Shown one piece after another: positions 3,665 to 10,268 of a DNA stretch of 49,733 bases; positions within the stretch are counted from its first letter, which is position 1; each line of letters opens with the position of its first letter. The notes under the pieces were generated by a model. That model made no database searches. It saw only the letters and a list, made by a program, of their open reading frames with translations, and had not been told where the DNA came from. Source of the stretch: Clostridiales bacterium (GTDB lineage Bacteria > Bacillota > Clostridia > Peptostreptococcales > Acidaminobacteraceae); NCBI GenBank assembly GCA_021107455.1, contig JAIOSU010000198.1, forward strand, positions 1 to 49,733, in the 5' to 3' direction. Made by a program: the position numbers and the translations under genes.

Positions 3665-6034
3665 CTATTTGAGTTCGATGACCGTCGCACCGTTACCGCC
3701 TTCATTATAAGCGGCATATTCAAAAGATTTGACATGTGGATGCCTCTTAAAGTGTTCATGAAGCCCTTTTCTTAAGACACCAGTCCCTTTTCCATGAATG
3801 ATTCTTACATGTGACAAACTTGAAAGCGCAGCATCGTCGAGATATTTATCAATCACAGTTATCGCCTCTTCAATATTTTCACCTCTGACATCGATTTCAG
3901 GACTGATGGTTAAACTACTGGATCTGACTTCTTTGATTTTTTGATAGGTTCTTTCATCAGCTTTCTTTTTTGAAAGCGGCATCAACTGTTTGATATTAAC
4001 GTTCATTTTCATAAGACCAACTTGAACGGTAAGTTCACCTTTATCATTTGGTAAAGTGAGAACCGAACCATCTTGGTTGATGCTAAGTACCCGCACGGAG
4101 TCTCCTATCAAAACAGATTCAGGCGCAAATTCACTCACCACATCAGCTTTTATGACGGAATCGGTAACTTGATCCAGCCCTGTTTGCAATCGCCTGCGCA
4201 TTTCTTCTATTTCACGATTTCTGTTCTTTTCATCTGATTTTTTGATGTCTCTCATGGATTTTACAATATCGTCGACTTCATCTTTCGCACTTTTCAGAAG
4301 TGTCTTCGCTTCATCCTTGGCTTTTTTCATCATTTCATCGCGTTGATTGACCCATTTGGTTTCTTTTTCCGCCAGTATTTTTTTCAGTTTTTCGACTTCT
4401 AGACGAATCCGGATTGCCTCATCTCTTTCGGCATCCGCCAATTTTCTGCTTTTTTCAATACTCGCAATGATATCCTCGAACTCAATGTTATCCTGATGAA
4501 CATATTCCTTGGCATGCTCAATCAAGTCTCCACTCAGCCCCAATTTCCTCGAAATCTCAAAAGCGTTGGATTTGCCGGGTATACCTATTAATAGTTTATA
4601 AGTCGGACTAAGTGTTTCCACATTGAACTCCACACTTGCATTTTCTATGCCTTCGTTTGCAATGGCATATGTTTTGAGTTCGGAATAATGTGTGGTCGCC
4701 ATGGTTCTTATGTGTTTCTTCCTGAGTTCATCCAAAATCGACATAGCAAGTGCGGCGCCTTCTGTAGGATCGGTTCCTGCACCGAGCTCGTCAAACAGAA
4801 CCAAAGAATCAGGAGTGACATCTCTTAAAATGGCCACAATATTGGTCATATGTGATGAAAATGTACTCAAACTTTGCTCTATACTCTGTTCATCACCAAT
4901 GTCCGCAAAAACCTGATCAAATACAGCAATCTGGGTTCCATAGTCCGCAGGTACGTGCAGTCCGGCTTGAGCCATTAAAGTCAGTAGACCAACAGTTTTC
5001 AGCGTCACCGTTTTTCCACCGGTATTCGGTCCAGTGATCAATAGAGTAGTGAAATGTTCACCTAGCCATATGTTCGAAGGGACAACTTCGTTTTTGGGAA
5101 GCAGTGGGTGTCTGCCATTTTTAATTCTGAAACATTTGTTGGTGGACAGCTCTGGCTCCACCGCTTTCATTTCAAGAGCCAATTTTCCTTTTGCAAATAT
5201 ATAGTCCAGTTTGGTCAATGAGGTCAAATTGATTGCAATCAAGTCTGCAACATCAGCCACTTCACCTGTAAGCATTCTCAATATACGCTCAATTTCCTTT
5301 TGCTCGCTGATTTTAAGTTCACGAAGTTCGTTGTTGAGTTCCACGACAGCCATCGGTTCAATATAGAAAGTGCTGCCTTTGGCGGATTGGTCATGGACAA
5401 GTCCTTTGATTTGATTTTTGTGTTCACTTTTCACAGGGATTACAAAGCGGTCTTGCCTTATGGTAATCAAAGTATCTTGAAGGTACTTTTGATACACTGG
5501 AGAAGTGATCATTGAGTCCAATTTATTTCTGATCGCCTGATTCTTACTGTCAATGGTCTTACGTATTTTTCTGAGTTCTGGAGATGCATTGTCTGAAACT
5601 TCAGTCTCAGACAGAATACATACTTCAATGTGTTTTTCAAGATCAGTCAAAACCGAAATCTGATTGGCATAAGATGCCAGTATCGGATATTTGATGGTGT
5701 TGGCTTCATTTCCGACAATATACTTTTTAAGTACTCGGGCAGTTCTGAGACTGTCACCAATTTCAATTAATTGCTTAGGCGTCAGACATCCCCCGATTTT
5801 CGACATTTTAAGTGCGGAACCTTGGTCATATATCGGACCAATCGGTGGATTGCTATGCTGGATAATCATATTGACTGCTTCAGTGGTCTCATCTATGGAA
5901 GCCTTCACTTCACTGAGTTCACTAGATGGAATCAACTCTTTGCAAAGCGCTTTTCCCGAAGCTGAGGTCGCTCTTGATTCCAACATATCGATCACTTTAT
6001 TAAATTCTAGGACTTTTAATGTTTTGTTTTTCAT
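3665..6034 (-). CDS. mutS2: Endonuclease MutS2
   Basis: A 789-residue MutS2 protein. It has a MutS core and clamp, a Walker A motif GPNTGGKT (residues 335-342), DELGAGTDPTEGAA (Walker B region) and TTHYSELK, then a long charged coiled coil (about residues 510-630) and a C-terminal Smr nuclease domain (about 715-789, with DVRG and HGKGTGVLR). MutS2 lacks the mismatch-recognition domain; in the family it is linked to suppression of recombination and to rescue of collided ribosomes. The start ATG follows GGGGGAAGT. It sits between the U32 gene pair and pxpABC. Confidence 0.97.
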   Translation of the reverse strand: MKNKTLKVLEFNKVIDMLESRATSASGKALCKELIPSSELSEVKASIDETTEAVNMIIQHSNPPIGPIYDQGSALKMSKIGGCLTPKQLIEIGDSLRTARVLKKYIVGNEANTIKYPILASYANQISVLTDLEKHIEVCILSETEVSDNASPELRKIRKTIDSKNQAIRNKLDSMITSPVYQKYLQDTLITIRQDRFVIPVKSEHKNQIKGLVHDQSAKGSTFYIEPMAVVELNNELRELKISEQKEIERILRMLTGEVADVADLIAINLTSLTKLDYIFAKGKLALEMKAVEPELSTNKCFRIKNGRHPLLPKNEVVPSNIWLGEHFTTLLITGPNTGGKTVTLKTVGLLTLMAQAGLHVPADYGTQIAVFDQVFADIGDEQSIEQSLSTFSSHMTNIVAILRDVTPDSLVLFDELGAGTDPTEGAALAMSILDELRKKHIRTMATTHYSELKTYAIANEGIENASVEFNVETLSPTYKLLIGIPGKSNAFEISRKLGLSGDLIEHAKEYVHQDNIEFEDIIASIEKSRKLADAERDEAIRIRLEVEKLKKILAEKETKWVNQRDEMMKKAKDEAKTLLKSAKDEVDDIVKSMRDIKKSDEKNRNREIEEMRRRLQTGLDQVTDSVIKADVVSEFAPESVLIGDSVRVLSINQDGSVLTLPNDKGELTVQVGLMKMNVNIKQLMPLSKKKADERTYQKIKEVRSSSLTISPEIDVRGENIEEAITVIDKYLDDAALSSLSHVRIIHGKGTGVLRKGLHEHFKRHPHVKSFEYAAYNEGGNGATVIELK

Positions 6035-6046
6035 ACTTCCCCCAAA

Positions 6047-7189
6047 TTATTCTACACCTTTACCGGTGATATGAAAATTGTCATTAAACTGTGGCATTTT
6101 TTTTACAAGATTATTGAAGTCACCTGATGTGGCTATTGTAGTAAGGATTTCCTTTTCTTCCACTGGATTCAGACGATCAAATTCCATTTTGAAGACTCTT
6201 ATTCCGAGTGTTCGAAGTCTAAGCATATTGCTTAACCAATTATGTGTTTTGCCAAATAGAATCTCCACTCTACAATATTCCGCATCACACCTGATAGGAA
6301 AGTGCATTCCCTTTTCATCTATGAGATCATAATCCCTTGATTTACAAAGATTACAACCCGATTTACCAGTAAGTGTTCCACCAACTGGACAATATTCGGA
6401 AACCATTGCCGGCATGTTGCCATAAATGTAATAGCCTAAATTCGACCTTTTCTTAAATGAACCCAGTTCCTGCACACTGAGTTCCGTGGACAATATCACT
6501 GATTCCGCCCCATTAGAAATAAATGTGTCATATGAATCCACATTAAAGCAGTTCATGGTCTCACCGGCAATCCACTTGACTCTTGAAAATCGTTTCAAAT
6601 AAACCATGTGCCCAATATGTGAGAGCACAATTCTTGGAAGAACTCTCTGCAAGGCACATTCGTTTTGATATCTTTCTATGAAATCTTCATGATTTTCAGC
6701 TCTACCAATCCTAGGAAGTACTGGAATCACTCTTTTATCTATCATCTGACTCATGTGATCTTCGTACGCTTTGAGATCATGCATGAACCAAATGGCATCA
6801 AAATCTTTTTCTTTGTGCTCCACTTGATATGAATCTTCAATGCATTCATTCAGGTAATCTTCAGAATAAAAATGCAAATGGAGTTCAATTTTGCCTTCAT
6901 TCCCATTGGATTCCGGCTTGATCAAATCACAAGTTTTACCTGAACGCTCAGGGTGCCAAACAGATAACTTTTCAGTGGCATCATCAACAAGCACCCTTCT
7001 CATACGATTGAGTTCACTGATTGGAATGACGAGTCCATCATCCATATTCACTTCAAATTGACTTAAGTAAAAAGGCGTTCCTCCAAGCTTTGAAAGTTGC
7101 TCAGTGACCCGTTCCACGCTGAGCGGTCTGTTGTTGGCACGTTCAGAAGGCATTTCCGAAACAACTTCCAAACGTAATGTTTGGTTCAC
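6047..7189 (-). CDS. U32 family protein, C-terminal part (DUF3656 region) of a split gene
   Basis: This is the C-terminal half of a long U32 peptidase-type protein: a DUF3656-like region (NRPLSVERVTEQLSKLGGTPF) and a second barrel-like part with VLPRIGR and a cysteine cluster (SGCNLCKSR ... CDAEYC). The reading frame is the same as that of the upstream N-terminal half (7328-8461), and the in-frame sequence stays readable back to 7309. Two stops, TAG at 7310-7312 and TAA at 7328-7330, separate the halves. The GTG at 7189 used here has only a weak ribosome binding site, so translation is uncertain. Long homologues include RlhA, which hydroxylates 23S rRNA C2501. It could be a separately made subunit or a dead half. 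Confidence 0.75.
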   Translation of the reverse strand: MNQTLRLEVVSEMPSERANNRPLSVERVTEQLSKLGGTPFYLSQFEVNMDDGLVIPISELNRMRRVLVDDATEKLSVWHPERSGKTCDLIKPESNGNEGKIELHLHFYSEDYLNECIEDSYQVEHKEKDFDAIWFMHDLKAYEDHMSQMIDKRVIPVLPRIGRAENHEDFIERYQNECALQRVLPRIVLSHIGHMVYLKRFSRVKWIAGETMNCFNVDSYDTFISNGAESVILSTELSVQELGSFKKRSNLGYYIYGNMPAMVSEYCPVGGTLTGKSGCNLCKSRDYDLIDEKGMHFPIRCDAEYCRVEILFGKTHNWLSNMLRLRTLGIRVFKMEFDRLNPVEEKEILTTIATSGDFNNLVKKMPQFNDNFHITGKGVE

Positions 7190-7309
7190 AATTCCGATTA
7201 ATTTTGCTTTCTTTTCCAGATGTGCTTCAAAAAAAAGACTGATCTCATTTACTGGTTTATCGATTTGACTCTCAAGTGTAGCCGCATCAATGTGCTGTTG
7301 ATCATAGGT

Positions 7310-7336
7310 CTAGTAAAATATACAGTATTATACTGT
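7310..7336 (-). other. Break point of the split U32 gene: two in-frame stops and a palindrome
   Basis: On the minus strand the frame reads KYKTV-stop-YCIFY-stop-TYDQQH. The first stop lies in a perfect 15-base palindrome, ACAGTATAATACTGT (7322-7336). A single T-to-A change in the second stop (TAG to AAG) would give YKTYD, which resembles the VYKT-type motif I recall from intact homologues. Confidence 0.7.
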
Positions 7337-8461
7337 TTTGTATTTGAAAGGTACCGTGACAATGCTACCTGCAGCAGCCGTTGAGACCCGCTTTCCATCC
7401 ATTGTTATGACATCGGTTCTCGCACCGACGGTTTTTCCTTTGAACCTCGTCTGAATTTCATCGCCTTTGTTTAGATCGTCTGTCAACTTAAGGGTTAAAA
7501 TACCATCACTTAAGCTGATTGTCTTACCAAGTACTGTTCCATATGAACTTGGCAATTCATAATTCATTAATGATTTATAATCCGCATCAAATAAATGTCC
7601 CTCAGTAAAATCGCGATTGAATACTTTAAACAATTTTTCATGATCGACACTTACAGGATGATCATCCATCGCATTTCTATAGGATGAGACCACAGTATAA
7701 ACATAATCTGGTCCTTTCATTCTTCCTTCAACTTTCAGAGAGACATTACCTAGTGCTTTAAGTTCTTCTATATGTTCATAAACATTGAGATCTTTTGGAC
7801 TCATCAAATAAACTTGCTCTGGTTTGTTCAGCATATTCTCTTTTCCTCTTTCCACAAGAGTATATGCTTTACGACAAGGCTGTGCACATGCACCTCTATT
7901 GCCGCTTCGACCACCAATGAGACTGCTCATAAGACATTGTCCCGAATATGATATGCATAGTGCACCATGAACAAAGAGTTCGATCTCCACATTTGTTATT
8001 TCAGTAATCTCCTTGATTTCAGCGAAACTCAATTCCCTGGATAGGACAACTCTTGAAAAACCTACTGATTGCGCCCACTCTACATCTTTAAGACTATGAA
8101 GAGTCATTTGGGTGCTCGCATGGCAGTGAAGATCCGGAAAAGCGGCTTTTATATTGGCTAAGAGACCTATGTCTTGTAATATAACTGCGTCAACATCGTG
8201 ATTGTATAGAAATTCTACAAACCCAAGAGCTTCAGACATTTCTGTCGATTTGATCAACGTATTGAGCGTCACATAAACCGCTACGTTGCGCTGATGGCAA
8301 TACTTTATAACTTCAACTATTTCCTCGTTTGAAAAATTGTTTGCAGATCGTCTTGCACCGAATTGTCTCCCCGCAAGATAAACAGCATTTGCACCGGCAT
8401 TGACCGCGGCTTTCAAACTTTCGCTTGATCCGGCCGGAGCAAGCAATTCCATTTTATTCAT
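7328..8461 (-). CDS. U32 family peptidase / RlhA-like protein, N-terminal part
   Basis: This encodes a complete U32 domain of about 377 residues: MELLAPAGSSESLKAAV at the start, GANAVYLAG, HASTQMTLHS, the signature ELFVHGALCISYSGQC and the cysteines of GNRGACAQPCR. Family members act in 23S rRNA or tRNA hydroxylation (RlhA, TrhP) and older annotations call them collagenase-like peptidases. I place the start at 8461, the fifth codon of the track ORF, because AGGTG sits five bases before that ATG. The normal continuation into the C-terminal part is cut by the TAA at 7328. Short stand-alone U32 proteins of this size exist, so this half may still work. It follows zapA after a terminator-like hairpin. 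Confidence 0.88.
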   Translation of the reverse strand: MNKMELLAPAGSSESLKAAVNAGANAVYLAGRQFGARRSANNFSNEEIVEVIKYCHQRNVAVYVTLNTLIKSTEMSEALGFVEFLYNHDVDAVILQDIGLLANIKAAFPDLHCHASTQMTLHSLKDVEWAQSVGFSRVVLSRELSFAEIKEITEITNVEIELFVHGALCISYSGQCLMSSLIGGRSGNRGACAQPCRKAYTLVERGKENMLNKPEQVYLMSPKDLNVYEHIEELKALGNVSLKVEGRMKGPDYVYTVVSSYRNAMDDHPVSVDHEKLFKVFNRDFTEGHLFDADYKSLMNYELPSSYGTVLGKTISLSDGILTLKLTDDLNKGDEIQTRFKGKTVGARTDVITMDGKRVSTAAAGSIVTVPFKYKTV

Positions 8462-8478
8462 TAAACACCTCATCCATT

Positions 8479-8518: not shown

Positions 8519-9064
8519 CTACTCTGTTGTTCCCTCTTCAAAATCGATCATTCTTGTTTGAGAATCACCGTGAGAAAACTCTTTTTCAAGCTCAAGAACC
8601 TCATTTCTCGATTTTTTAAGATCCTCTTCTTTTCGTTTAAGGTCTTGATCCAATTTTTCCATTCTTCTTCTCAGCTGAGATACACCAGTCTCATAAATAC
8701 TGGAAGAATCAATCAGTTTTGAAAACTCATGAACCATTTTTTCATAAGCAAGGCTTCGTCTTTCAAATTCAGATACAACGGCATCCAATTCGTCGCGTGC
8801 ACTTTTAAGCTCATATTGAGGCGAATTGATTCTACGTTCGAGTTCTTCTTTTTCAATCAGTGCCTTATGTAACTCATCAGCCACATTCAGTGCCGTCAAC
8901 ACTCCAATCATGGATGTGCTCAGTTTTTTATTGCCCTCAAATGTTTCTCTCATTTTATCATCAACATAATTGGCGACTTTTTGCATATGTTCTCTGGAAT
9001 CATCACTGACCAGTGTATAATCACGGTCCATTATCTTTACGGTAACTTTGTTTTTTTGTGTCAT
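8519..9064 (-). CDS. zapA: Cell division protein ZapA, long coiled-coil form
   Basis: The first 80 residues match ZapA: KVTVKIMDRDYTLVSDDSRE, then a helix with VANYVDDKMRE and VLTALNVADELHK. ZapA binds and bundles FtsZ filaments at the division ring. At 181 residues it is about twice the usual 85-110; the extra part (about 70-170) is a heptad-rich coiled coil (EKEELERR ... KRKEEDLKKSRNEVLELEKE). Longer ZapA proteins of this sort occur in clostridia. The start has GAGGGGTG six bases upstream, and a TATAAT lies further upstream near 9100. Its place before U32 and mutS2 is a recurrent clostridial order. Confidence 0.9.
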   Translation of the reverse strand: MTQKNKVTVKIMDRDYTLVSDDSREHMQKVANYVDDKMRETFEGNKKLSTSMIGVLTALNVADELHKALIEKEELERRINSPQYELKSARDELDAVVSEFERRSLAYEKMVHEFSKLIDSSSIYETGVSQLRRRMEKLDQDLKRKEEDLKKSRNEVLELEKEFSHGDSQTRMIDFEEGTTE

Positions 9065-10030: not shown

Positions 10031-10059
10031 TAAAAAAGCCCCGGCTATGCCGAGGCTTT
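10031..10059 (-). terminator. Intrinsic terminator after csp gene
   Basis: AAGCCTCGG and CCGGGGCTT form a GC-rich hairpin followed by six T on the minus strand, directly after the cold-shock gene. Confidence 0.9.
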
Positions 10060-10067
10060 AGGTTTGA

Positions 10068-10268
10068 CTATCTGATTGGTGTTACGTTCTCAGCTTGAGG
10101 ACCTTTAGGACCTTGAGCGATTTCAAAAGTAACTGCTTCGCCTTCTTCTAAAGACTTGAAGCCATCTTTGTTAATTTGTGAGAAGTGTACGAAAACGTCT
10201 TTTCCGTCATCACCAGTGATAAAACCAAAACCTTTTTCTGAGTTAAACCATTTTACAGTTCCGTTCAT
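10068..10268 (-). CDS. Cold-shock protein (CspA family)
   Basis: A 66-residue single cold-shock domain with the RNA-binding motifs KGFGFI (RNP1) and VFVHF (RNP2), and the usual start [16 protein letters not shown]. Such proteins bind single-stranded RNA and DNA and melt mRNA structure. The ATG has GGAGG upstream (TTGGAGGCACAAC). It is monocistronic: its own promoter with a leader of about 140 bases upstream and a terminator downstream. Confidence 0.97.

Follow-up and report, generated by a model that had tools for sequence, protein, structure and literature searches.

The U32/DUF3656 gene that lies between zapA and mutS2 in the 49,733-nucleotide stretch of DNA analysed here (the window) is likely a young pseudogene, i.e., a dispensable paralogue whose ordinary loss has been caught early. 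This assembly does contain the two stops within an otherwise conserved frame of 808 codons, and by sequence comparison the two-stop frame stands out against every other family genome examined. We propose that codon 382 (AAA to TAA) and codon 388 (AAG to TAG), at the edge of DUF3656, have recently been turned into stops by nonsense substitutions; translation would then yield 381 residues that include the U32 catalytic domain but not the C-terminal half. The gene would be dispensable in the family, probably since other U32 paralogues remain, and would have been lost repeatedly, with the window representing an early stage of that loss.

Organization of the interrupted frame

The U32/DUF3656 frame occupies the minus strand from 8473 to 6047 and is open apart from the two in-frame stops. 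The features of the locus are as follows.

7331–8473, minus strand: N-terminal U32 part, 381 codons counted from the first ATG, with the complete Peptidase_U32 catalytic domain
7328–7330, minus strand: in-frame stop TAA, codon 382; AAA (Lys) in the intact relative
7322–7336, minus strand: ACAGTATAATACTGT, a perfect inverted repeat of 15 bases (arms of 7 bp around a 1-base centre); the TAA lies inside it
7310–7312, minus strand: in-frame stop TAG, codon 388; AAG (Lys) in the intact relative and Lys in five near outgroups
6047–7309, minus strand: C-terminal part, 420 codons followed by TAA, with DUF3656 and a second U32-like stretch, downstream of both stops
7187–7189, minus strand: GTG, codon 429, the first common in-frame start past the stops, inside DUF3656 and without a strong ribosome binding site
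8519–9064, minus strand: zapA, conserved upstream neighbour of the U32 gene
3665–6034, minus strand: mutS2, conserved downstream neighbour of the U32 gene

The likelier start of the frame is the ATG at 8461, which is located directly 3′ of AGGTG. Reading of the frame in the window bears out the two in-frame stops described in a first-pass annotation, as well as its suggestion that the TAG replaces the lysine codon of a YKTYD motif, which reads FYKTYDKK in the intact relative. The 61 open codons that had been counted from the TAG to the GTG at 7189 are corrected to 40, and our inspection of this GTG agrees with the earlier remark that the C-terminal half lacks a strong ribosome binding site.

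In a Pfam profile search the N-terminal part matches PF01136 with an E-value of 5e-79, and its score of 265 bits against a curated cut-off of 22.4 places it within Peptidase_U32. The conserved cysteines of this part are retained, and the VHGALC...GQC region is unbroken. The C-terminal part is matched by PF12392 (DUF3656) and by PF01136. In the intact protein DUF3656 comprises residues 387–503, and the TAG thus strikes the second residue of the domain; the first common start codon of the C-terminal half is found 40 codons into it. DUF3656 is part of one continuous protein in the intact copy; in the window copy PF12392 lies beyond both stops.

Comparison with an intact relative

A genome of the same genus (G002) carries the gene on JAGXHV010000115.1, from a metagenome-assembled Bacillota genome, as an intact single-frame protein of 808 residues at the zapA-U32-mutS2 locus. 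Stops aside, the window copy has the same position, length and frame; it differs by its two nonsense substitutions. Amino-acid identity over the full length is 88%, with 93% in the N-terminal and 84% in the C-terminal half. The nucleotide alignment across the break contains zero gaps and hence no indel: the relative reads ACA GTC AAA AAC AGT ATA TTT TAC AAG ACC and the window ACA GTA TAA TAC TGT ATA TTT TAC TAG ACC, so that each stop is a one-base change of a lysine codon. Since every other ortholog in the family is intact, we take that state to be the ancestral one; Lys388 is kept in the five nearest outgroups, and position 382 is variable.

Alignment of the two halves and their join to the intact homologue, a check put forward in the first-pass annotation, accordingly gives one continuous, gap-free frame. 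The annotation had considered a nonsense or insertion event, a natural split, or readthrough; of these, our data speak most for a recent nonsense event, an insertion fails on the gap-free alignment to the same-genus gene, and a split and readthrough are disfavoured. A short inserted element of 21–27 bp was likewise excluded, by the same alignment and by the absence of other copies. As expected of a nonsense pseudogene, the window gene has an intact syntenic ortholog in a close relative, from which it differs at the stops by substitution. The window gene resembles young bacterial nonsense pseudogenes in being intact in a close relative, in carrying in-frame stops and in belonging to a locus lost in relatives, but is unlike them in that its two stops are very near each other and are accompanied by almost no further decay.

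The frame is clean across both stops, as would be expected if programmed readthrough or codon reassignment joined the halves. This would, however, require decoding of two different stop codons, TAA and TAG, only six codons apart, at positions where intact orthologs carry ordinary lysine or other sense codons, and the neighbouring genes terminate normally on TAG and TAA. Furthermore, the local fold is unremarkable, and no stop-reading anticodon or suppressor tRNA was seen among the 28 tRNA matches in the genome, a clearly incomplete set that includes one weak match not called a tRNA by ARAGORN. Readthrough is therefore regarded as extremely improbable.

Probable repeated loss of the gene at the zapA-mutS2 locus

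The order zapA-U32-mutS2 is the normal one in the family: a further 13 of its genomes, from 10 genera, have a single-frame U32 gene at this place. Stops among the family orthologs of the long U32 gene are confined to the window genome. The idea of a natural split into two subunits was followed by seeking the same split in sister genomes, and finds no counterpart there: every mutS2-adjacent family ortholog is one frame, and no split ortholog is present in 40 other family genomes. Short U32 frames in G018 and G041, which were considered as further breaks, are contig-end truncations instead.

Several relatives have little or nothing left of the gene. In one genome of the same genus (G001), three U32 scraps remain within about 195 bp between zapA and mutS2, and in another (G003) zapA adjoins mutS2 with no detectable U32, an arrangement also seen at the locus in G051, G048, G023 and G047. 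In G019 the former U32 site is occupied by a mini-frame of about 56 codons (L151, 3882–4052) that fuses U32 residues 5–27 in frame to residues 686–720, i.e., the start of the gene is joined to a C-terminal cysteine-rich piece. Presence and absence also alternate within genera: in one genus U32 is present in G049 and lost from G048 and G019, of which the latter keeps only the remnant, and in another it is present in G011, G050 and G052 and absent from G051.

This patchy distribution across the family indicates, as far as can be judged from the sequences, that the U32 gene has been lost repeatedly, a process of which the window copy would show an early stage. Gene loss would then be seen here at its first step, with relatives showing later steps at the same locus, first scraps and then a clean gap, which suggests that the U32 paralogue linked to zapA and mutS2 is dispensable in the family.

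Conservation of the two halves and age of the break

Both halves are well conserved. Between the window and the intact same-genus copy, dN/dS is 0.06 for the N-terminal and 0.13 for the C-terminal half, as compared with 0.02–0.05 for neighbouring genes. When polarised with five outgroups, 21 derived residues are assigned to the window lineage and 34 to that of the relative, and there is thus no excess on the window branch. Among 91 residues that are invariant in 13 orthologs, none is changed in the window copy except for one that is changed in both copies. The faster C-terminal half was considered as a sign of relaxed selection and this was rejected, since the C-terminal half is also the faster one in other family pairs (1.4–2.2 times the N-terminal rate, and 2.3 times here). 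Amino-acid changes around the break are in general not significantly clustered. In a simple model, neutral evolution is possible for only about 1% of the branch, a rough figure that assumes equal branch lengths and draws on few informative sites.

The conservation of the halves and the lack of a window-lineage excess imply that the break is recent or still polymorphic; more broadly, the scant decay leaves a choice between stops that are recent, polymorphic or erroneous and a truncated gene that is still in use. The missing excess of derived residues fits a very recent event, although it does not prove inactivation. It is the stops that argue for a loss of function, as neither half has decayed beyond them, and the N-terminal half with its whole catalytic domain could still be active.

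In a draft assembly of 333 contigs with 4.8% estimated contamination, the stops could stem from faulty sequencing or assembly, or from a minority variant that entered the consensus, and but for the stops each half would pass as fully functional. Two stop-making substitutions together with changes in neighbouring codons (382, 383, 384 and 388) and no frameshift are, however, an atypical error pattern, and a genuine nonsense event is plausible given that relatives have lost the gene. An error or a minority variant is considered unlikely.

The gene may alternatively encode a shortened or split but functional enzyme, with the N-terminal half acting alone as a one-domain U32 protein, or with a separately translated C-terminal half assembling with it. 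Such a role would agree with the conservation of both halves, with the location of the break at a domain edge, with the retained cysteines of the catalytic region and with the related U32 proteins of about 410 residues in the same genus. Recency accounts for the conservation equally well, however, a split ortholog occurs in 0 of 40 other family genomes, and for a C-terminal product the first common start lies 40 codons into DUF3656 and has no strong ribosome binding site, which makes this alternative quite unlikely. The window copy is probably a young, non-functional copy of a repeatedly lost gene.

Origin of the clustered substitutions

If the two stops were independent, the probability of finding them six codons apart would be about 1.5%; stops so close are unlikely unless they arose together or local mutation is non-random. 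Four A-to-T changes fall inside 20 bases (p about 0.04–0.05, post hoc), and may tentatively be ascribed to one clustered mutation templated on local repeats.

The 15-base palindrome ACAGTATAATACTGT that had been noted at the break is indeed present at 7322–7336. It is not unusual, because both the number of inverted repeats and the fold are at chance level: the window contains three perfect inverted repeats of this kind (7-bp arms, 1-base centre), as compared with one to eight in ten shuffled versions, and with z = −0.62 the RNA fold at this place is a weak, unremarkable hairpin. No second copy of ACAGTATAATACTGT exists in the genome within 1 mismatch, i.e., it is not a repeat element, and nothing resembling a promoter or a terminator was reported at the break. 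The palindrome as a meaningful signal was thus ruled out, and it is best read as a chance-level feature made by the substitutions, with no demonstrable role in the break.

The neighbouring ancestral ACAGTAT can be recognized in both arms of the palindrome, in one as a direct and in the other as an inverted copy; of the five changes from codon 381 to codon 388, template switching would account for four. A new repeat with 7-bp arms emerged from random clustered changes in 1–5% of simulations, and mutation by template switching at quasipalindromes is known from E. coli (PMC7202029). A template switch would be a reasonable account of the changes around the TAA, while the TAG is not explained by it alone. 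The proposal that the four clustered changes in codons 381–384 arose in one template switch between AAAACAGT, AAAACAGTATA and inverted ATACTGT, which would have made the first stop and the palindrome together, has also been considered jointly with the view that the stop-bearing gene still works as a U32 enzyme of 377–381 residues, with its catalytic domain and without the DUF3656 half; to this combination we give little credence.

U32 function and paralogues

The E. coli U32 proteins RlhA and TrhP are required for rRNA and tRNA hydroxylation (PMC6599085). The window protein resembles them in its Peptidase_U32 domain and conserved cysteine region, and by analogy with the family a role in RNA hydroxylation may be suggested. 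It differs from TrhP in that the N-terminal part matches the NCBIfam TrhP model (NF011996) over residues 5–213 with 218.5 bits, below the cut-off of 534, and is not TrhP by that model. No model named RlhA, the factor for hydroxylation at C2501 of 23S rRNA, is among the NCBIfam matches to the window protein, and a PDB sequence search returned no relative of it. The occurrence of intact and stop-bearing copies in one genus would allow a comparative test of the putative RNA-modification role; apart from that, the locus is a case of ordinary genome evolution.

Besides the interrupted gene, the genome has another long U32 gene whose frame is open (C146, an 805-residue frame), and this intact gene may render the window copy dispensable. 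In the same genus, mltG and a TrhP-like U32 gene are linked in G001 and close together in G003, and both are missing from the assembly of the window genome (G000). A true absence of the TrhP-like gene from this genome was considered and set aside, an assembly gap probably being the better explanation as its usual neighbour mltG is missing too. A short TrhP-like U32 gene in another family genome (G019:C5:59308-60138; a 412-residue frame) contains one internal TAA and is possibly another case of nonsense mutation in a U32 gene.

Elsewhere in the window, the minus strand at 10031–10359 matches the Rfam cspA thermoregulator (RF01766) with 84.3 bits (gathering threshold 78); the match overlies the gene of a 66-residue cold-shock protein (10068–10268), and the coding sequence may drive most of it.
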